From Dyadobacter flavalbus (GTDB taxonomy: Bacteria; Bacteroidota; Bacteroidia; Cytophagales; Spirosomataceae), in assembly GCF_006149045.1 (NCBI RefSeq), contig NZ_VBSN01000024.1, positions 1 to 64,000 of the forward strand: a stretch of DNA of 64,000 nt. The letters run 5' to 3'. The position numbers were made by a program, and so were the translations under genes. Below, piece by piece: positions 1 to 62,166 of this stretch. Position 1 is the first letter of the stretch. Each line of letters begins with the position of its first letter. Under the pieces are notes generated by a model. The model searched no databases and was not told where the DNA came from. It saw only the letters and a list, made by a program, of their open reading frames with translations.

Positions 1-82
<82 letters not shown>

Positions 83-18550: not shown

Positions 18551-18859
18551 AATAATGGTTCGTGATGTTGGTTGATTCCTGAATGATGTGAATATATAGT
18601 CTAACGATAAGAATACGCTAAGAGTTGCAAATTTTTATGCCTTGATCGGTACTCGTATAGTGATCAGGGTTAATTGTTTAAAAGGTGTTCCTTAATTTTC
18701 ATAGTAACGTCCGAAGCGTATCAACGGTCAAATTACAGGCTATGTAACCGGCAATATATTAATATTTATTCATGAAATTATACAAGTAGTCGCATCAACA
18801 GTCATCTCTTTTTGTATTTTTGCTGCTAATATTGTCATTATTTAATTTTTTGTTTGTTC
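18551..18859. other. divergent intergenic region, uvrA / susC
   Basis: The gap holds a perfect -7 element (TATTTTTG at 18815-18822) for the rightward susC, but no TTG at the expected -33 position. This may mean that an activator is required. I found no clear uvrA promoter and no SOS-like box by eye. Confidence 0.4.
18815..18822 (+). promoter_or_regulatory. -7 element of first susC promoter
   Basis: TATTTTTG matches TAnnTTTG exactly. The start site would be near 18829, giving a leader of about 50 bases. No TTG is found 19-21 bases upstream. Confidence 0.5.
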
Positions 18860-18874
18860 ACATTTTACCTATTC
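18860..18874 (+). promoter_or_regulatory. susC leader element, copy 1
   Basis: ACATTTTACCTATTC ends 4 bases before the susC ATG at 18879. The same 15-mer with one change (C to T at position 10) ends 4 bases before the second susC ATG at 43915. The rest of the two leaders is not alike. This points to a translational or RNA-level control site, or a conserved ribosome-landing sequence replacing Shine-Dalgarno. Confidence 0.6.
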
Positions 18875-18878
18875 GTTT

Positions 18879-21800
18879 ATGAAACAAAATCTACGCTTCA
18901 GGGTATTGTATGCCTTGATTTTTCTGGTTGGCTTATTAGGCAGTATGTCCGTCCATGCACAGGAACATTGGGTTACCGGTAAAGTAACTTCGTCTGTAGA
19001 TAACATGGGATTGCCCGGAGTCAATGTTCAGGTAAAAAACACAACTACCGGTACTGTGACGGACGCAGACGGAAATTACTCCATTGATGTGAAGGCAAAT
19101 GACGCGGTACTCGTATTTTCTTCCATCGGTTTCGGGAAAAAAGAAGTGACTGTAGGCACGCAGTCCACGGTTAACGTATCGTTGACGGACGATGTTAAAA
19201 GCCTCAGCGAAGTGGTTGTAACCGGTTATGGCTCCCAGTCCAAAAAGGAAATAACGGGTGCCGTTGCCACGCTGGATGCCAAGCAGCTGCTCACAACACC
19301 GGCAACCAACCTTGGCCAGGCATTGCAGGGAAAAGTAGCGGGTGTGGTGATCGGAAATGAAAACAGCCCCGGCGGCGGCGTTTCGGTACGTATCCGCGGG
19401 TTCGGTACCATCAATGACAACTCGCCGCTTTATGTTGTGGACGGCGTTCCTACAAAAGGTGTTGGCGCCAATGGCGTTTCCAATACGCTGAATACGCTGA
19501 ACCTGAACGATATCGAATCCATGCAAATCCTGAAAGATGCTTCTGCTGCTTCTATTTACGGATCACGCGCCGGTAACGGGGTTGTCATCATAACCACCCG
19601 GAGAGGAAAGATCGGCAAACCTGTTTTCACCTATGACACCTACTATGGCACCCAGCGTCCGGGAAAATTGCTGGACATGCTCAACACACAGCAATATGCA
19701 GACCTGACCTGGGAAGCAAGGACCAACACGCTTAACCTCAGCAAAATGGTAAACGGCGCATTTCCTGATGGCACCACACTGACTTATCCGACACATGCCC
19801 AGTTCGGAAATGGCCAAACGCCGAAAATTCCGGATTATATTTTCCCGTCGGGCGTTTATGAAGGCGATCCGAAAGTTGCGCAGGATGCAAACGGCAATTA
19901 CATCAATTACAGTACGGACGTTAACAATGCCAATTTCAACAAAACCAAATGGCTGATTACCAAAGCAAACAAGCAGGGGACCAACTGGCTTAAAGAAATT
20001 TACCAGCCCGCTCCTATCCAGAACCACCAGATCGGGGTTTCCGGCGGAACCGAAAGCGGCCGTTATGCCATGTCGCTGAATTATTTCGACCAGCAGGGTC
20101 TGATGATCCACACCAACTTCAAACGCTACACCTTGCGCTCCAATACCGAATTCAACATCAACAAGCGCATTCGTGCAGGCCAGAACTTTCAGGTGGGTTA
20201 TGCGTCAAGGGTTGGTCAGCCAAATGGCAACAATGCGGAAAGCAACCCTACTTCTTTCGGTTATCGCGTGCCGCCGATCGTGCCGGTTTATGACGTAGCC
20301 GGAAATTTTGCAGGAACCCGCGGGGCCGATGTGGACAATTCGGTGAACCCGGTTTCGCTGCTGTACAGAAACAAGGATAATCAGCAGAAGGAAGTAAGGC
20401 TGTTCGGAAATGCCTACGCAGAAGTGGACATACTTGAAAACCTGACTGCAAAAACCAGCTTCGGTATTGACTATAACCTTTACAATTACCGCAATTACGT
20501 TCCGAGAGACATTGAATCGGCAGAAGCAAGAAGTACGCAAAGCCTGACCACAACCAACAATTACGAATGGACATGGACGTGGTATAACACCCTTACTTAC
20601 AACATTGCACTGAACAATGCGCATAAACTGAATATCATTGCCGGTACAGAATCCATTAAAAACTATTATGAAAACTTTGATGCAACACGTACCAATTATC
20701 TTGTAGATGCGCTGGATAACCGTTATCTGAGCGCAGGAACAGGCGTGCAGACCAACAACGGCGGTGCTGCCAACTGGCGCCTAGCTTCCGAATTTGCACG
20801 CGCCAGCTATGGTTACCAAAGCAAATATCTCTTTGATGCCACCATTCGCCGCGACCGTTCTTCCCGTTTTGCTGCGGCCAACCGCGTTGCCTACTTTCCG
20901 GCATTGAGCGCAGGCTGGGTTGTTTCGGATGAAAGTTTTGTAAAATCCGCTGCTTCATGGCTTTCCTATGCCAAGTTCAGAGTGGGCTGGGGACAAACCG
21001 GAAATCAGGAAATTGGTAACTATAACTCTTTTACACAATTTGCTACGAACCCTGCTTTGTCATTCTATGATTTGAACGGTGCCAAAACTTCCGCCATTGC
21101 AGGTTACGAGCTGATTCAGTTTGGCAACCAGAAAGCGAAATGGGAAACAACGACTTCCACCAACATCGGTCTGGACGCTGCTTTCTTCAAAGGAGCATTT
21201 GACCTTGCGCTGGATTGGTACACACGTACAACAACTGACATGCTGTTCCCTGTTTCACCTCCTTTGACTTCCGGCGTAGCCGCTTCGCCTTTCCAGAACA
21301 TCGGTTCCATGCGCAACCGCGGAATTGACCTTGGTCTGAACTACAACGGAAATGCTGCAAACGGCGATCTGACCTATACGCTTGGTGTCAATGTAAGTAC
21401 TTACCGCAACGTTGTAACCAGAACAAACGGCGATCCGAACACGCAATACTTCGGGATCAATGACGAACGTATCCAGAATTTCGTCGTAACGCAGCAGGGC
21501 CATCCGATTTCTTCATTCTTCGGGTACAAACACGACGGTATTTTCCAGACCGATGAAGAAGCGCAGAAAGCACCAAAAAACAATCTGGGTTCCAATGAAA
21601 ACAGAGCGGGACGTTTCAAATTTGTGGATGTGAACGGAGACAATGTCATTGATACCAAAGATTTGAGCATTATCGGCAATCCGCACCCTGACTTTACCTA
21701 CGGCGTTAACCTGAATGTGAATTACAAAGGTTTTGGCCTTGCCCTTTTCGGTGCGGGTGTTCAGGGTAACGAAATTTTCAATTATACCAAATACTGGACC

Positions 21801-22196
21801 GATTTCCCGACATTCTTTGGAAACAAGAGCACGCGCATGCTGAACGAATCGTGGAGGCCCGGAAAAACGGACGCCATTCTTCCGCAGCTGAATTCAAGCG
21901 ATCAGGTGAGTATTCTTCCTTCAGACTATTATCTTGAAAAAGGATCTTATTTCCGCTTCAAAAACATTCAGTTTACTTATTCTTTCCCGAAAGAACTGCT
22001 TTCCAAAATGGGACTCGGGCCTTGCCGGATTTATGTTCAGGGACAAAACCTGGTTACGTTCACCAAATACTCCGGAATGGACCCTGAGATCAACCTGCGT
22101 AATTATGGCGCAGGAAATGACCGGCAGATCGGTGTTGATGGCGGTTCTTATCCTGCTTCCAAACAGTATATCGTTGGCCTGAACATCAGTTTTTAA
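18879..22196 (+). CDS. susC: SusC/RagA-family TonB-dependent outer-membrane receptor (first pair)
   Basis: The 1105-residue protein has a signal peptide (ending SVHAQ), a carboxypeptidase-D-like regulatory domain (about 29-115, VTGKVTSSVDNMGLPGVNVQVKN onward), a plug domain with VRIRGFGTINDNSPLYVVDG and the SusC hallmark YGSRAGNGVVIITTRRGK (about 228-245), then a 22-strand barrel ending in IVGLNISF. SusC forms the TonB-driven pore that imports a ligand captured by the SusD lipoprotein, encoded 58 bases downstream. No glycoside hydrolase or regulator accompanies the pair, so the substrate could be an oligosaccharide or another nutrient. Confidence 0.95.
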   Translation: MKQNLRFRVLYALIFLVGLLGSMSVHAQEHWVTGKVTSSVDNMGLPGVNVQVKNTTTGTVTDADGNYSIDVKANDAVLVFSSIGFGKKEVTVGTQSTVNVSLTDDVKSLSEVVVTGYGSQSKKEITGAVATLDAKQLLTTPATNLGQALQGKVAGVVIGNENSPGGGVSVRIRGFGTINDNSPLYVVDGVPTKGVGANGVSNTLNTLNLNDIESMQILKDASAASIYGSRAGNGVVIITTRRGKIGKPVFTYDTYYGTQRPGKLLDMLNTQQYADLTWEARTNTLNLSKMVNGAFPDGTTLTYPTHAQFGNGQTPKIPDYIFPSGVYEGDPKVAQDANGNYINYSTDVNNANFNKTKWLITKANKQGTNWLKEIYQPAPIQNHQIGVSGGTESGRYAMSLNYFDQQGLMIHTNFKRYTLRSNTEFNINKRIRAGQNFQVGYASRVGQPNGNNAESNPTSFGYRVPPIVPVYDVAGNFAGTRGADVDNSVNPVSLLYRNKDNQQKEVRLFGNAYAEVDILENLTAKTSFGIDYNLYNYRNYVPRDIESAEARSTQSLTTTNNYEWTWTWYNTLTYNIALNNAHKLNIIAGTESIKNYYENFDATRTNYLVDALDNRYLSAGTGVQTNNGGAANWRLASEFARASYGYQSKYLFDATIRRDRSSRFAAANRVAYFPALSAGWVVSDESFVKSAASWLSYAKFRVGWGQTGNQEIGNYNSFTQFATNPALSFYDLNGAKTSAIAGYELIQFGNQKAKWETTTSTNIGLDAAFFKGAFDLALDWYTRTTTDMLFPVSPPLTSGVAASPFQNIGSMRNRGIDLGLNYNGNAANGDLTYTLGVNVSTYRNVVTRTNGDPNTQYFGINDERIQNFVVTQQGHPISSFFGYKHDGIFQTDEEAQKAPKNNLGSNENRAGRFKFVDVNGDNVIDTKDLSIIGNPHPDFTYGVNLNVNYKGFGLALFGAGVQGNEIFNYTKYWTDFPTFFGNKSTRMLNESWRPGKTDAILPQLNSSDQVSILPSDYYLEKGSYFRFKNIQFTYSFPKELLSKMGLGPCRIYVQGQNLVTFTKYSGMDPEINLRNYGAGNDRQIGVDGGSYPASKQYIVGLNISF

Positions 22197-43895: not shown

Positions 43896-43910
43896 ACATT
43901 TTACTTATTC
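43896..43910 (+). promoter_or_regulatory. susC leader element, copy 2
   Basis: ACATTTTACTTATTC ends 4 bases before the ATG at 43915. It is identical at 14 of 15 positions, and in spacing, to the element before the first susC at 18860-18874. Confidence 0.6.
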
Positions 43911-43914
43911 AATA

Positions 43915-46900
43915 ATGCGTATGAAAAAACAAATACTGTTTATGGTATTGTTACTTCTTTCCATGCTTTCAATGCACAGTTATGCCCAGGAAATGACAGT
44001 AACAGGTAAAGTAACCGAAGAAGCGGGAGGAGAAGTGGCCGGGGTCAACGTAGTGGTAAAAGGTTCCAGCCGCGGTACAACTACAAACGACAAAGGCGAA
44101 TACAGTATCAGTGTTGAAAAAGGCAAAATCCTGACCTTCAGTTTTATTGGTTTCAATTCCAGGGAAGTAACAGTTGGCAGTGAGTCCGTAATAAACGTTT
44201 CACTCACACCGGAAGCAACAGCTTTAAATGAAGTTGTGGTAACTGCTTTGGGTATCAAAAAAGAGAAAAAAGCACTGGGTTATTCTGTTTCGGAAATAAA
44301 AGGCGAAGAACTGGTTCAGGCGCGCTCCACCAATATTGCCAATACGCTTGTGGGAAAAGTGGCCGGTCTGAATATTACAGGAACAGCAACTGGCCCGGGT
44401 GGATCCACGCGTATAACACTGCGCGGAAACGGCTCCATTGACGGCACTAATCAACCTCTGATTGTTGTAGACGGTATTCCCATCAACAATGACAACCTTG
44501 GAGCAGCCGGTATGTGGGGTGGCGGCGACCGCGGCGACGGAATTTCCAGCCTTAACCCTTCTGAAATTGCAAATATCAGCGTACTGAAAGGTGCCACGGC
44601 AGCTGCACTTTACGGATCACGTGCATCCAATGGCGCCATTCTGGTAACAACCAAAGGCGGTGTTGCCGGTAAAGGGATCGGCGTAGAGATCAACTCCAAT
44701 TTCACTACCGATAATTTGCTGATTACTAAGTTCAAGGATTTTCAGTATGAATATGGAATGGGAAGAAATGGTGTAAAACCAACTACACAGGAGCAGGCCA
44801 TGAGTTCATCCAGCTTTGGTGCCAAACTGGACGGATCAAGTGTTATTCAGTATGATGGTGTTTCAAGGCCCTACTCTGCTGTAAAAGACAATCTTACCAA
44901 ATTTTACAAGACGGGAAATACTTTCAATAACTCGGTTGCCCTGACCGGTGCAACTGAAAAAGTAACTTACCGCGTATCGCTTGCCAACCTGAGCAACAAA
45001 GGTCTGGTTCCGGACAATACACTGGACCGACAGAACTATGCAGTTAACTTAAACGCAAACCTGAGCAAGAACCTTTCTATGCTGGGGAATGTCAAGTATA
45101 CGCATGAGAAGAATCACAACAGGCCGAAAGTTTCCGATTCTCCGGGAAATGCCAATTACACGCTGATTAACATGCCGACTTCACTTAGTGTTGAAACGAT
45201 GAAGCAAAGCATGTTGGATGACCGCGGTTATGAAATGGTATGGGGAGACAATATTTACGTAGACAATGCATATTATGCAGCGACCCAGTTCAAGCAGGAT
45301 GATAATAAAGATCGTTTTATTGTATCTTTTGAACCCAAGTATAATTTCACGGACTGGTTGTATGCAAAGGCACGTGTAGGTTTTGACAAGTATTTTTACA
45401 ACTATACAGCCATTACGCCAACCGGAGTTCCTTATCAGCCGCTGGGCGGATATGATAAAAACGTTCAGTCGTTTTCAGAGGTAAACTCCGAACTTCTTTT
45501 CGGATTGAACAGAAAGCTTGTTGGTGACCTGAATCTAAATATGCTGGTTGCAGGAAACCTGATGAAGCAAGTTATTCGTCAGGATTACATCAGTGGTTCC
45601 AGCTTCAACATTCCGTTTTTTTACGATATAACCAACATCAGTCCGGCATCACGCAACGCATCTTACAATTACATCGAAAAAAGGATCAATTCTGTTTACG
45701 GATCGGCTGAATTTTCATACAAAAGCTATGCATACCTGACCGTAACTGGGCGAAATGATTGGTTCTCAACATTAGCACGAGGGAAAAACAGTTTATTTTA
45801 TCCTTCCATAGCAGGTAGTTTTGTACTGTCAGAAGCGGTAAGATTGCCGTCTGCAATAAGCTATGCCAAACTGAGAGGTTCGTGGGCAAAAGCCGGCGGC
45901 GATACCAATCCTTACAGACTTTCACTTTACTACGGACTTTCCGGTGCGCACATAGGATCTCCATTGGCACAAATCAGTGGAAGCACAGTTCCGTATGCAG
46001 GTCTTCAGCCTTTAAGAAGTTATACTTACGAATTTGGACTGGAAAGCAGGCTTTTCAACAGCAAGCTTGGTGTTGATTTCACTTATTACGATCGCCAGAC
46101 CAAGGATGATATCGTTGCTGCCTCCATTTCGGGAACATCCGGATTTACAAGCGTACTGCTTAATATCGGACAAATATCCAATCGTGGTGTTGAATTAATG
46201 CTGAATTACGATCTGATCAAAACCAACAACTTCACCTGGGATATTTCCTACAATCTGGGCTACAACAAGAGCAAGGTAGTATTTCTCGGCGATGGCCTGG
46301 ACAATATACAAGTTGACAATCCGCGTTCTCAGACTGCTTATGTATTTCAGGAAGTTGGCCAGCCTTTCAGCTTGATTAAAGCAGCTTCTTTTGTAAGGGA
46401 TGAGCAGGGAAGAATTGTATACAATGCACAAGGTATGCCGCTGAAAGGCGACCTGAAACCTTATGGAACCGGAATCTCTCCTTATACAATGGGCTTCACT
46501 ACCAATTTCAGATACAAAGGCGTTGGTCTTTCTGTTTTGTTTGACGGACGCTTTGGCGGCCATATCTACTCCGGTACCAATGCACTGGCAACAAGATACG
46601 GCTTGTCCAAAGAGTCACTTGTCGGTCGTGAAACAGGCGTTGTGGGCGAAGGTGTAAATGAAGAAGGAGAAATCAATACGGTAAGCGTACCGGCTACTCA
46701 GTATTATGAAAACCTATACAATTTTGGTGAGCCTTTCATTTATAAGTCGGATTTCATCAAGCTTCGTCAGGTAATTCTTGATTACAGCATTCCTTCCAAA
46801 GTACTGGGCAGATCACCGTTCAGAGGTATCTCCGTTTCGCTTGTAGGAAGAAACCTTGCAATCCTGATGAAGAAAACGCCGAATATCGATCCGGAATCGA

Positions 46901-46989
46901 CTTACGGAAACGGTAACGCACAAGGCTATGAATTTGCCGGTGTGCCTACAACTCGCAGCATTGGTGTTAACCTTAACCTGAAATTCTGA
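43915..46989 (+). CDS. susC: SusC/RagA-family TonB-dependent outer-membrane receptor (second pair)
   Basis: The 1024-residue protein begins MRMKKQILFMVLL; a second ATG two codons on is possible. It has a signal peptide (ending HSYAQ), a carboxypeptidase-D-like domain (about 28-110), a plug domain with ITLRGNGSIDGTNQPLIVVDG (here split) and the SusC signature YGSRASNGAILVTTKGG (about 237-253), then a barrel ending GVNLNLKF. With the SusD downstream it should import an oligosaccharide. Its place after the symporter and GH130 genes suggests a mannoside, but the 296-base gap with its own promoter means it could belong to another pathway. Confidence 0.95.
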   Translation: MRMKKQILFMVLLLLSMLSMHSYAQEMTVTGKVTEEAGGEVAGVNVVVKGSSRGTTTNDKGEYSISVEKGKILTFSFIGFNSREVTVGSESVINVSLTPEATALNEVVVTALGIKKEKKALGYSVSEIKGEELVQARSTNIANTLVGKVAGLNITGTATGPGGSTRITLRGNGSIDGTNQPLIVVDGIPINNDNLGAAGMWGGGDRGDGISSLNPSEIANISVLKGATAAALYGSRASNGAILVTTKGGVAGKGIGVEINSNFTTDNLLITKFKDFQYEYGMGRNGVKPTTQEQAMSSSSFGAKLDGSSVIQYDGVSRPYSAVKDNLTKFYKTGNTFNNSVALTGATEKVTYRVSLANLSNKGLVPDNTLDRQNYAVNLNANLSKNLSMLGNVKYTHEKNHNRPKVSDSPGNANYTLINMPTSLSVETMKQSMLDDRGYEMVWGDNIYVDNAYYAATQFKQDDNKDRFIVSFEPKYNFTDWLYAKARVGFDKYFYNYTAITPTGVPYQPLGGYDKNVQSFSEVNSELLFGLNRKLVGDLNLNMLVAGNLMKQVIRQDYISGSSFNIPFFYDITNISPASRNASYNYIEKRINSVYGSAEFSYKSYAYLTVTGRNDWFSTLARGKNSLFYPSIAGSFVLSEAVRLPSAISYAKLRGSWAKAGGDTNPYRLSLYYGLSGAHIGSPLAQISGSTVPYAGLQPLRSYTYEFGLESRLFNSKLGVDFTYYDRQTKDDIVAASISGTSGFTSVLLNIGQISNRGVELMLNYDLIKTNNFTWDISYNLGYNKSKVVFLGDGLDNIQVDNPRSQTAYVFQEVGQPFSLIKAASFVRDEQGRIVYNAQGMPLKGDLKPYGTGISPYTMGFTTNFRYKGVGLSVLFDGRFGGHIYSGTNALATRYGLSKESLVGRETGVVGEGVNEEGEINTVSVPATQYYENLYNFGEPFIYKSDFIKLRQVILDYSIPSKVLGRSPFRGISVSLVGRNLAILMKKTPNIDPESTYGNGNAQGYEFAGVPTTRSIGVNLNLKF

Positions 46990-58587: not shown

Positions 58588-60075
58588 TCACGTTTTGTTT
58601 TCAAGCGCTTCTTTCATGATACCGATGGCTTCATTCAGTTCGTGTTCATTCAGGTTTCCGAACCCGAGCCGCACTGCACTCAGCTGGCCGGTCTGGAAAA
58701 GCAGCGTTTGCGGAAGCAGCAGATCTTTTTTCAGACAAGCTTTGCTGAGCCGCATGAGATTAATGTCCTTTTGCCATTCCGTCCAGATCGCCAGTCCGCC
58801 CGGCGGCGACGTAAAATTCAGGTATTCACTCAAATGCCGCGTCAGCAATGTACTCAGCAAATCCCTGCGCTGGTGATAAACTTTCTGCGCTTTTTTGATA
58901 TGCCGCTGTATTTCGCCTTCGTCCAGAAGCTCGGCCAAAGCCTGTTCCATCAACAGATCACTCTGCCGGTCAATGATGCGCCGGAATTTACCGAGTTCTG
59001 AAATCAGGTTTTGCGGCGCCACAATGTACCCGCTACGAAGGCCGGGCGCCAGTGCCTTGCAGAATGACCCGACATAAACAACCATTCCCGCACTGTCTGC
59101 GCTTGCCAAAGGTAACACCGGACTGCTGTTGTAATGAAAATCATAATCATGGTCATCTTCCAGAATGATAAATCCGTACTGCACCGAGAGGTTCAGCAGT
59201 TCCACACGACGGCCGGCACTGAGGGTAACCGTTGTGGGATAATGATGATGCGGTGTAATGTAAAGCATCCGGATGGACTTTGTCAGGCATAGCTTCCTGA
59301 CTGCCTCTACTGAAATCCCCTGATCGTCCACAGGAACGGAAATAATATTGGCACCCGCCTGCTGAAAAATCATATTTGCCGTATAGTAACTGAGATTGCC
59401 CACAACTACATGATCGCCTTTTCGGATCAGCAGCATGGAAGCGAGGTAAATGCCCATCTGAATACCGCGGGTTGTAATGATATTTTCCCTGCTGATATGC
59501 AGGCCGCGCGTATTGTTGAGGTAAATGGCCAGTTTGTCGCGGAAATACGTGTTGCCTTCCACATGCGCATAATTCAGATACTTGCGGTTGTTGCTCCTTT
59601 TCAGAACGCTGGAATACGCTTTTGCCAGCTTGTCCATCGGCGCAAGACGAACGTCCGGCAGCCCGTCTGTAAATTCCAGTCCCGTTCCTGAAACCGATAC
59701 CGGCCTGTCGAGCAGCATGCTTTGCTCAAATGAAAAACCCGTTTTTTCAGGATAACTGACCAGATTTTCTGCACTGAAAGGCAATGAACCCGCTTTCGGA
59801 ACCGGCGACTTGTCGGTCACAAATGTGCCTTTGTTCGGCAGCATTTCAATCCAGCCCTGCGCATCGAGTTCGTTGTACGCAGCAACGACGGTTTTACGGT
59901 GCACCTCCAGTATTTCGGACAGTGTACGCGTGCCGGGCAGTTTTACGCCTTTGTTCAGCACCCCGCGCTGAATGGCATTGATCATTTGCCGTGCAATCTG
60001 AAGGTAAACGGGCGTTGCCGTTCCGCGTTCCAGCAGAATGACACTTTTAAAAGGAATTTCAACCGGACTACTCAT
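58588..60075 (-). CDS. MocR-type GntR regulator with aminotransferase domain
   Basis: The 495-residue protein combines an N-terminal GntR winged helix (about 15-85; IARQMINAIQRGVLNKGVKL, given in part) with a fold-type I aminotransferase domain (about 120-490). The PLP lysine is in VGSFCKALAPGLRSGY; LEDDHDYDFHY is the PLP-ring motif. MocR proteins use PLP to sense pyridoxal, GABA or other amino compounds. It is divergent from the TonB receptor gene across 123 bases and may regulate it. Confidence 0.92.
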   Translation of the reverse strand: MSSPVEIPFKSVILLERGTATPVYLQIARQMINAIQRGVLNKGVKLPGTRTLSEILEVHRKTVVAAYNELDAQGWIEMLPNKGTFVTDKSPVPKAGSLPFSAENLVSYPEKTGFSFEQSMLLDRPVSVSGTGLEFTDGLPDVRLAPMDKLAKAYSSVLKRSNNRKYLNYAHVEGNTYFRDKLAIYLNNTRGLHISRENIITTRGIQMGIYLASMLLIRKGDHVVVGNLSYYTANMIFQQAGANIISVPVDDQGISVEAVRKLCLTKSIRMLYITPHHHYPTTVTLSAGRRVELLNLSVQYGFIILEDDHDYDFHYNSSPVLPLASADSAGMVVYVGSFCKALAPGLRSGYIVAPQNLISELGKFRRIIDRQSDLLMEQALAELLDEGEIQRHIKKAQKVYHQRRDLLSTLLTRHLSEYLNFTSPPGGLAIWTEWQKDINLMRLSKACLKKDLLLPQTLLFQTGQLSAVRLGFGNLNEHELNEAIGIMKEALENKT

Positions 60076-60115
60076 TATATCAAAACCGGAGTATGTGAAC
60101 AGTCCGGCAAGGTAT

Positions 60116-60123
60116 TAGTTTTG
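60116..60123 (+). promoter_or_regulatory. -7 element of the TonB receptor gene
   Basis: TAGTTTTG matches TAnnTTTG exactly; the start site would be near 60130. ATG replaces TTG at the -33 position, 20 bases upstream. Confidence 0.5.
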
Positions 60124-60198
60124 AAGAAAACAGTGAAATGTTACAGTGAAATGATGTTTAATAAAACACTTAATTCCGACTTGAAAAGTCACGTTTCA

Positions 60199-62166
60199 AT
60201 GCATTCTATGCATATTTCAGTTCTTTCAAAAATCTTCTTTTTCTGTATTTTCCTGCTTGGTTGTCAGAAAGCCGTAGCGCAGGAAATTTCGCTGGACCCG
60301 GTTACGGTTACTTCTTCCATAACAGAAAAAAGGGCGTCACAAACGGGCCGCAACATTGCCGTGATCAAAGGCGAATACTTTCAGGATCTTCCGGTAAACA
60401 GTATTGATGAACTTCTGCGCTATGTGCCGGGTGTGGAAATGCAGGCACGCGGGCCAATGGGTTCCCAAAGCGATATTGTACTGCGTGGCGGTACGTTCCA
60501 GCAGGTGCTGGTTATCCTGGACGGGCTTCGCCTGAACGATCCGAATACGGGCCATTTTAACAGCTACATTCCCGTTGCCGCTTCTGAAATTGACCGTATC
60601 GAGGTTCTGAAAGGTGCCTCGTCCGCCATTTACGGTTCGGATGCCGTGGGCGGCGTTATCCATGTGATTACCAAAACTTTCTCGGCCAGACTGCATGCTG
60701 AAAATCCGCAGGAAAATATCCGGAAAACGACGGTTAATGCAGCCGTAACCGGCGGACAATACGGACTTTTCAATGTGAATGCAGGCGCTTTTATCCAAAG
60801 AAACAAACTGGCCCTTTCCGGCGGATTGATCACAAATAATGCTTCCGGCGTGCAGCAGCGCGGGATTAAAGGCTATTTCAACAACAATACGGCGTCTCTT
60901 TCGCTTTCTTACGCCATTTCGCCAAACTGGGAAGCAGCCGTGCGAAGCTCTTACGACCACCGCGATTTTGCCGCACAGAATTTTTATACCGTCATTAAAT
61001 CGGATACGGCGAGTGAAATCGTAAAAACTTCCTGGAACCAGTTCCGGATCGGTTATAAAAAAAGCAGCACAAATGTTTCTTTTAGCGGCGGTTACAAAGC
61101 TGTAAATGACCGGTATCAGTTTAATCCGCATGCCATTGCAAACAACAGCAAGTCGCAGTTATGGCAGGGTTTGCTGACATGGCAGCAGACATTAAGCCAG
61201 CATACAAGTCTTATCAGCGGAATCAATTACCAGAACAGGAAAATTTCTTCCAACGACCGCGGAAACCATACAATCAATCAACTGGCACCGTTTGTTTCAT
61301 TGTCTCAGAACATTGGTGAAAACGTTACGGTAAGTCCGTCCGTTCGCTTGGACTGGCGTGAAAATATCGGTACGGAGCTCGTGCCGCAGATTAATGTGTC
61401 CTACAAAAAAGGAAGCTGGCAACTGCGCGGAAGTGCCGGAAAAACAATCCGCGATGCCGATTTTACGGAAAGGTTCAACAATTACAACAAAGCCATTGTA
61501 ACAGGCGGCAACGTCGGAAATCCGGATTTGAGCGCGGAGAAGTCGTTCAGTTACGAAGCAGGAGCCGACTGGTTCCTGACCAAAAGCAATGCAACGCAGC
61601 TCAAAATCTCGGGCACCTTTTTTCAAAGACTGCAAAACGATCTCATTGATTATGTAATTACGCCCTATGCACAAATGCCGAGAAAAGACAATCTTTCACC
61701 GACGGGAACATTCGGTCTGGCCAGAAATATCGCAAATGTAAATACGACCGGATTGGAACTGGATATGCAGCTTGTAAATGCTTTCAGTGAAAACCGGAAA
61801 CTGATCCTGAATTCCGGACTGACGTGGCTCGACAGTGAAAGCGGCGAGGCAGTAACTTCATTCTATATTTCCTCACATGCCAAGTTTCTGACCAATTTTT
61901 CAGCGATTTACCAGCATTCAAACTTTTCTTTCAGTATCAATGGCATTTATAAAGCAAGAGCTGCGCGCGAAGCATCTGCTATCGAAGCTGCCATTACAAA
62001 GGAATATTTTGTTTTGAACGCCAGAGCAGAATATGCATTTTACAGCAGAAAACTGGCAGCTTTTGTGCAGGCAGACAATGCATTTGATACCCAATACAGC
62101 GACTTGCTGGGTTCCCGAATGCCGGGACGCTGGCTGATGGGCGGGTTGAAATTCAGTATTGATTAG
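60199..62166 (+). CDS. TonB-dependent receptor (BtuB/ferric siderophore-like)
   Basis: The start chosen (ATG at 60199) gives 655 residues with a signal peptide MHSMHISVLSKIFFFCIFLL and cleavage near KAVAQ; ATGs at 60151 and 60208 are alternatives. The plug domain follows (about 40-155; RNIAVIKGEYFQDLP, IDELLRYVPGVEMQARG, GSDAVGGVIHVITK), then a 22-strand barrel ending in an aromatic-rich last strand (WLMGGLKFSID). It lacks the carboxypeptidase-like domain of SusC, so it is a classical receptor for a metal chelate or vitamin. The TAG stop lies within the first unit of a repeat array. Confidence 0.9.
   Translation: MHSMHISVLSKIFFFCIFLLGCQKAVAQEISLDPVTVTSSITEKRASQTGRNIAVIKGEYFQDLPVNSIDELLRYVPGVEMQARGPMGSQSDIVLRGGTFQQVLVILDGLRLNDPNTGHFNSYIPVAASEIDRIEVLKGASSAIYGSDAVGGVIHVITKTFSARLHAENPQENIRKTTVNAAVTGGQYGLFNVNAGAFIQRNKLALSGGLITNNASGVQQRGIKGYFNNNTASLSLSYAISPNWEAAVRSSYDHRDFAAQNFYTVIKSDTASEIVKTSWNQFRIGYKKSSTNVSFSGGYKAVNDRYQFNPHAIANNSKSQLWQGLLTWQQTLSQHTSLISGINYQNRKISSNDRGNHTINQLAPFVSLSQNIGENVTVSPSVRLDWRENIGTELVPQINVSYKKGSWQLRGSAGKTIRDADFTERFNNYNKAIVTGGNVGNPDLSAEKSFSYEAGADWFLTKSNATQLKISGTFFQRLQNDLIDYVITPYAQMPRKDNLSPTGTFGLARNIANVNTTGLELDMQLVNAFSENRKLILNSGLTWLDSESGEAVTSFYISSHAKFLTNFSAIYQHSNFSFSINGIYKARAAREASAIEAAITKEYFVLNARAEYAFYSRKLAAFVQADNAFDTQYSDLLGSRMPGRWLMGGLKFSID

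Follow-up and report, generated by a model that had tools for sequence, protein, structure and literature searches.

A sequence signature at the translation starts of susC genes in Dyadobacter flavalbus

Do the leaders of two susC genes that carry nearly the same string of 15 bases share a control site? The question is posed by a stretch of 64,000 nucleotides of Dyadobacter flavalbus (contig NZ_VBSN01000024.1, positions 1 to 64,000; the window from here on), in which ACATTTTACCTATTC at 18860-18874 and ACATTTTACTTATTC at 43896-43910 lie 4 bases upstream of the ATGs at 18879 and 43915. These head two susC genes, called here susC1 and susC2. An earlier note on this DNA suggested that the string, lying at the landing site of the ribosome, might be a translational control site or an initiation signal particular to susC. 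The broader idea of such a signal is supported, but by different sequence features: a leader poor in G and rich in ACC, together with TAC at +13 to +15, sets the starts of 65 susC genes apart from those of 258 other genes, and it is replicated in a second genome; the 15-mer itself is most likely no such signal.

In full, the translation-initiation signature of susC genes consists of a nearly G-free leader of A, C and U, an ACC (often AACC) between -25 and -5, a run of A after the AUG, and a UAC that begins at +13 to +15. The signature is real in Dyadobacter and some of its relatives, and takes the form of a statistical enrichment.

The signature at susC starts

The genome has 67 genes above the TIGR04057 cut-off, from which 65 starts were collected, and the 258 other genes were taken from a 400-kb portion of it. 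G makes up 3.8% of the susC leaders and 12.9% of the others at positions -20 to -10; the susC leaders are also rich in C (27.1% against 19.1%). ACC is found within -25 to -5 in 41/65 susC genes and in 60/258 other genes, and the longer ACCTAA within -45 to -1 in 12 and 1 of them. Inside the coding sequence, TAC starts at +13 to +15 in 26/65 susC genes and in 18/258 others (p = 5.5e-10), or in 4/53 when the comparison is with signal-peptide-like genes (p = 3.5e-5). When 3-mers were screened along the start region without a preset candidate (5812 features), the same triplet came out on top, in a 4-base window from +13 (28/65 and 25/258, p = 3.5e-9), whereas the best p in 500 permutations of the gene labels is 1.7e-7. 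Both parts occur in the same gene in 17/65 susC genes and 4/258 others. The lead to TAC came from an alignment of susC1 orthologs, and the window of +13 to +15 was set from the distribution in D. flavalbus.

In a genome of the same order but another family (G080), TAC is present in 21/50 susC genes and 14/130 others (p = 7e-6), ACC in 35/50 and 46/130 (p = 2.7e-5), and both in 15/50 and 6/130. Another genome of the order, G061, has TAC in 6/10 and ACC in 10/10 of its susC genes, six of which had been seen before the rest were fetched. A weight matrix built on the D. flavalbus starts separates susC from the other genes of G080 with an area under the curve (AUC) of 0.83 in G080, 0.86 in G061, 0.82 in G048 and 0.68 in G079. 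All 11 susC1 loci of the genus have TAC, as do 23/33 susC1 orthologs of named genomes; five of the latter belong to Dyadobacter and for the most part duplicate the loci already counted for the genus. Among five single genes taken at class level, TAC is found in three and ACC in none.

A single leader motif at a fixed position was sought and rejected, in that motif discovery returned a soft AAACC-type motif without fixed spacing, modestly above background samples. Splitting the susC genes by a long N-terminal extension gave TAC in 4/14 and 22/51, numbers too small for use.

Nucleotides or amino acids at codons 5 and 6

The UAC falls on codons 5 and 6, and a constraint on the n-region of the SusC signal peptide could in principle produce such a pattern: Leu-Leu, Leu-Arg and Leu-Gln are frequent at these codons, the enrichment in G080 is limited to one frame, and codons 4 and 6-8 also have a slight excess of A-ending Leu codons. 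The D. flavalbus genes, however, are enriched for TAC in every frame. As the Tyr codon itself it occurs in 5 of the 65 susC genes and 4 of the 258 others (p = 0.02), as nTA-C in 13 and 9 (p = 3e-5), and as nnT-AC in 8 and 5 (p = 1e-3).

The choice among synonymous codons speaks in the same sense. With the residue held fixed in 144 Cytophagales susC genes, Leu and Val end in A at codon 5 in 47/57 cases, and at codons 8-16 in 98/394 (p = 5e-17); the figures for G080 alone are 21/24 and 41/142. Two background gene sets have no significant bias of this kind at codon 5 (p = 0.06 and 0.67). When codon 5 is nTA, the codons for Arg or Leu that follow begin with C in 25/27 cases, against 253/394 (p = 1e-3). 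TAC is spread over 22 different residue pairs. Given its enrichment in each of the three frames of D. flavalbus and its tie to synonymous-codon choice in the pooled Cytophagales, UAC has probably been selected as a nucleotide sequence. A protein-level constraint is accordingly improbable as the main explanation, and pure signal-peptide coding is an unlikely cause of the codon 5-6 pattern.

A possible RNA-level role

Since the position of UAC is tied to the AUG, a role of the signature at translation initiation is favoured. A DNA-level element, such as an operator or a transcription pause site spanning the start, is unlikely: the ACC and TAC parts are both short and present in DNA as well, but UAC keeps its distance from the AUG to roughly one base, a constraint that should not matter to a transcription factor.

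The best reading, which we hold tentatively, is by analogy: the signature may be an RNA-level site for the control of SusC translation, comparable to the site of the FopS small RNAs (sRNAs) and tuned by a common factor. It would act on the mRNA at initiation, as a bipartite recognition site for that hypothetical factor, either a FopS-type sRNA or an RNA-binding protein, and the factor would tune the translation of many SusC importers jointly. A bolder version, which we consider rather unlikely, has the leader ACC and the UAC in synonymous codons form one bipartite RNA element, by which a single factor (one sRNA family or a single RRM protein) would set the translation of dozens of importers, so that these would make up a SusC-wide translational regulon with its code partly inside the coding sequence.

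The main rival of the RNA-level site needs no dedicated regulator. Here an unstructured, G-poor start with an A-run and UAC would simply be favoured by the ribosome, as an intrinsic enhancer of initiation; this is possible, though we lean away from it. Consistent with such an enhancer, susC starts fold less than those of other genes (mean minimum free energy at -35 to +35 of -5.6 against -7.7, p = 2e-4; in G080 -5.1 against -6.5, p = 2e-3), and in Flavobacterium johnsoniae weak structure and adenines near the start accompany high initiation (PMC6847099). Yet the 30 susD starts of D. flavalbus are at least equally open (-4.5), and have TAC in one case and ACC in four; because open susD starts rarely carry either triplet, something specific to SusC is favoured. 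The determinants named in PMC6847099 are, moreover, adenines at -3, -6, -12 and -13, whereas hardly any difference in C or G was significant. This Kozak-like, A-rich context of Bacteroidota resembles the susC starts in lacking a Shine-Dalgarno sequence and in being poor in G and weakly structured; it differs in that its adenines and low structure matter genome-wide, whereas ACC and the coding-region UAC set susC starts apart from genes of the same genome.

The nearest precedent for an RNA-level site is found in Bacteroides thetaiotaomicron, where translation of susC is repressed by FopS sRNAs that base-pair at its start, with the protein RbpB as their antagonist (PMC11697453). The earlier note had put forward control by a small RNA or an RNA-binding protein, and the precedent on susC starts is indeed real in Bacteroides; the host here is a Dyadobacter, so that the precedent is an analogy across orders, and the 464 kb of the genome that were scanned gave no hit to such an sRNA. 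FopS is described in PMC11697453 as conserved within Bacteroidaceae. The complement of its published seed has AACC upstream of ATGAAAAAC, in likeness to the Dyadobacter leaders. The UAC at +13 to +15, on the other hand, lies past the pairing reach of the published 35-nt query, and the Dyadobacter signature is known from sequence alone.

The FopS seed favours susC starts over other starts in Bacteroidales and Dyadobacter alike. Its mean pairing energy is -12.6 kcal/mol with susC and -10.5 with other starts of D. flavalbus (p = 1e-6), -13.0 and -11.3 in G080 (p = 5e-3), and -14.8 and -11.1 in Bacteroidales (p = 2e-3), while the reversed seed has no such gap (-8.7 and -9.0 in D. flavalbus). Better pairing is weak evidence, as A-rich starts contribute to it. 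A protein factor has one candidate, by domain alone: the genome has a single match to RRM_1 (PF00076, 77.5 bits), which may be of the RbpB type. Among more distant systems, Hfq/Crc of Pseudomonas controls catabolic mRNAs and has an A-rich motif. It is similar in that many nutrient-uptake genes share a short start-region motif read by a global RNA-binding factor, which in Dyadobacter is hypothetical; it is dissimilar in the motif itself.

Several observations weigh against the RNA-level site. The signature is weak or absent in susD, in Bacteroidales and in several genomes. TAC is found in 1/12 susC genes of G079, of the same order, though ACC is found in 8/12; in 1/7 of those pooled from four small genomes of the order; and, in other orders, in 1/15 of G048 (ACC in 10/15) and 3/12 of G068 (ACC in 4/12, matrix AUC 0.56). 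In Bacteroidales, the very order in which sRNAs have been proven to control susC, neither UAC nor ACC is enriched (TAC 2/21 and ACC 3/21 in susC, 5/72 and 9/72 in other genes). The signature may also not be exclusive to SusC, given that 19 presumed non-SusC TonB receptors of D. flavalbus, weak-scoring rows picked by hand whose family was not checked and some of whose starts look wrong, have TAC in 5 and ACC in 3. The two parts co-occur no more often than expected (p = 0.12). The +13 to +15 window was chosen post hoc on D. flavalbus, so that G080 is the cleaner test, and in G080 TAC is enriched in the nTA-C frame alone (18/50 and 3/130; the remaining two frames have 0 and 3 of 50, and 4 and 7 of 130). 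A-ending Leu codons at codons 4, 6, 7 and 8 (7/11, 17/41, 15/33 and 15/30) are milder than at codon 5 (41/49) but above later codons. susC2 has its TAC at +14 just when read from the ATG at 43921. Finally, when the window plus 400 kb (464 kb of 6.48 Mb) was scanned with Rfam (4227 models, the inclusion of FopS among them not having been checked), the hits were one rRNA and eight tRNAs, and no sRNA. A pattern search for an antisense sRNA in the same sequence returned three sites, none of them convincing.

The shared 15-mer

The 15-mer itself is very improbable as a susC-specific control site, which is what the earlier note had proposed. What speaks for it is the placement of its exact copies: among the matches listed (100 of 106) the genome of 6.48 Mb has just two, which precede these two susC genes alone. 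The statement that no other gene of the window has it also holds, as all further matches in the window carry at least 2 mismatches. Six copies with one mismatch are found in the genome, again among the matches listed, and none of the six precedes a susC start. Up to 2 mismatches, the whole genome has 106 matches (100 listed), which is no excess over the 140 of a reversed control. Eight of the pattern matches, at C21:12862-12925 of the D. flavalbus assembly, follow each other in 7-base steps and are a tandem repeat of ACATTTT.

Other susC leaders do not have the 15-mer, which is the outcome that the earlier note itself had named as refuting its idea. All 14 fixed positions are matched in 2/65 leaders (-100 to -1), and the best of the remaining 63 reaches 11/14. 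The pair is the best same-offset match (14/15) over 2080 pairs of leaders, but when the columns of the leaders were permuted among genes, 14/15 was reached in 8/200 trials. As the top match of a set of 65 leaders the pair is thus of borderline significance; such a match would be far less likely had the pair been chosen beforehand.

Orthologs conserve little of it. Ten susC1 orthologs of the genus, not counting that of D. flavalbus itself, and nine susC2 orthologs were read. D. sediminis, whose susC1 is the closest named relative (99% identical), has the 15-mer exactly before susC1 (14/14 fixed positions) and with one change before susC2 (13/14). Four other susC1 orthologs keep 11-12 of the 14 positions, at -21 or -22 rather than -19, and five keep less; the leaders of the eight susC2 orthologs other than that of D. 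sediminis all have fewer than 11 of 14 and are unrelated. The proteins whose genes do not keep the 15-mer in place are 69-89% (susC1) and 62-82% (susC2) identical to those of D. flavalbus. Outside the genus, the susC1 ortholog of Spirosoma sp. 48-14 (L209) has ACATTTTACTAATTC, with 13/14 fixed positions, at a different spacing (about -26).

The spacing of the pair is likewise uncertain. Both strings stand 4 bases before an ATG, as the earlier note had it, but the fixed distance from the start does not follow, because the start of susC2 is itself in doubt. All eight orthologs besides that of D. sediminis (62-82% identity) begin at query residue 3, which corresponds to the ATG at 43921; therefore this may be the start of susC2, and the spacing would then be 10 bases, not 4. 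The weight matrix gives 6.5 to the ATG at 43915 and 4.8 to that at 43921, a mild preference, though susC2 read from 43915 was part of the training set. With 2/65 leaders, poor conservation in orthologs, and 14/15 reached by permuted leaders, the 15-mer was rejected as a shared control element. Most likely, the pair is a chance-level resemblance of two leaders with the same biased composition, kept in D. sediminis.

Features of the window

Coordinates of the two genes and of the elements at their starts are collected in Table 1. The window also has a gene similar to TonB receptors at 59899-62166, with a SusC signature of 39.5 bits, below the cut-off, and, at its very edge (1-81, minus strand), the 5' end of a 16S rRNA gene.

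Table 1. Elements at the starts of susC1 and susC2 and the genes themselves
Feature	Position	Strand	Remarks
susC1 leader, G-poor	18845..18878	+	3 G in 34 bases
susC1 leader 15-mer	18860..18874	+	its ACC (18867-18869, -12 to -10) matches the general ACC-rich susC leader
susC1, SusC/RagA TonB-linked outer membrane protein	18879..22196	+	1105 aa
TAC at +14 in susC1, coding-region part of the start signature	18892..18894	+	codons CTA CGC
susC2 leader 15-mer	43896..43910	+	without ACC
susC2 in-frame ATG pair, 43915 and 43921, six bases apart	43915..43923	+	
susC2, SusC/RagA signature above cut-off	43915..46989	+	1024 aa
TAC at +14 in susC2, counted from ATG 43921	43934..43936	+	codons ATA CTG

Gene sets and choice of starts

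The starts of the D. flavalbus susC genes were picked manually, with signal peptides as the guide, at a stage when TAC had yet to be tested on them, and an automatic rule agrees with them in 61/65 cases. Two genes were left out as having unusual susC starts, C28:15763 (a frame of 587 aa) and C36:27087 (812 aa); the sub-threshold genes L097-L100 were not counted, and a sub-threshold gene of the window, at 60586, was not used. For the background sets (258 genes of D. flavalbus and 130 of G080), each open frame was taken to begin at its first ATG.

Starts in other genomes were set by the automatic rule, and some are doubtful (e.g. L374 and L388); the G080 and G048 sets contain a few short open frames. 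From G061, G048 and G068, just the matches above the cut-off were used (10/16, 16/21 and 12/18, respectively). L281, L341, L333 and L185 have no usable start, L192 and L206 have no gene start, and L417 and L420 are unannotated and were not used. The Bacteroidales set consists of 21 annotated susC genes from records filed as plasmids; 23 of 160 matching plasmid records were examined, and 21 of these supplied the set. One record, L428 (NZ_OY725757.1), is filed as a plasmid of Parabacteroides distasonis but has rpoB, rpoC, tuf and genes for ribosomal proteins, and looks chromosomal.

Implications

SusC importers are a large family, as the 67 genes above the cut-off in D. flavalbus illustrate. In the literature found, post-transcriptional control of susC is described for B. 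thetaiotaomicron only, and, going by titles and the beginnings of abstracts, the open-licence literature searched yielded no account of a motif in the susC coding region or of susC translation in Cytophagales. For those who express these proteins, careless recoding of the N-terminal codons of susC is inadvisable. A near-fixed nucleotide mark within the susC coding sequence is, at the same time, a concrete handle that can be mutated to track down a factor in another order.
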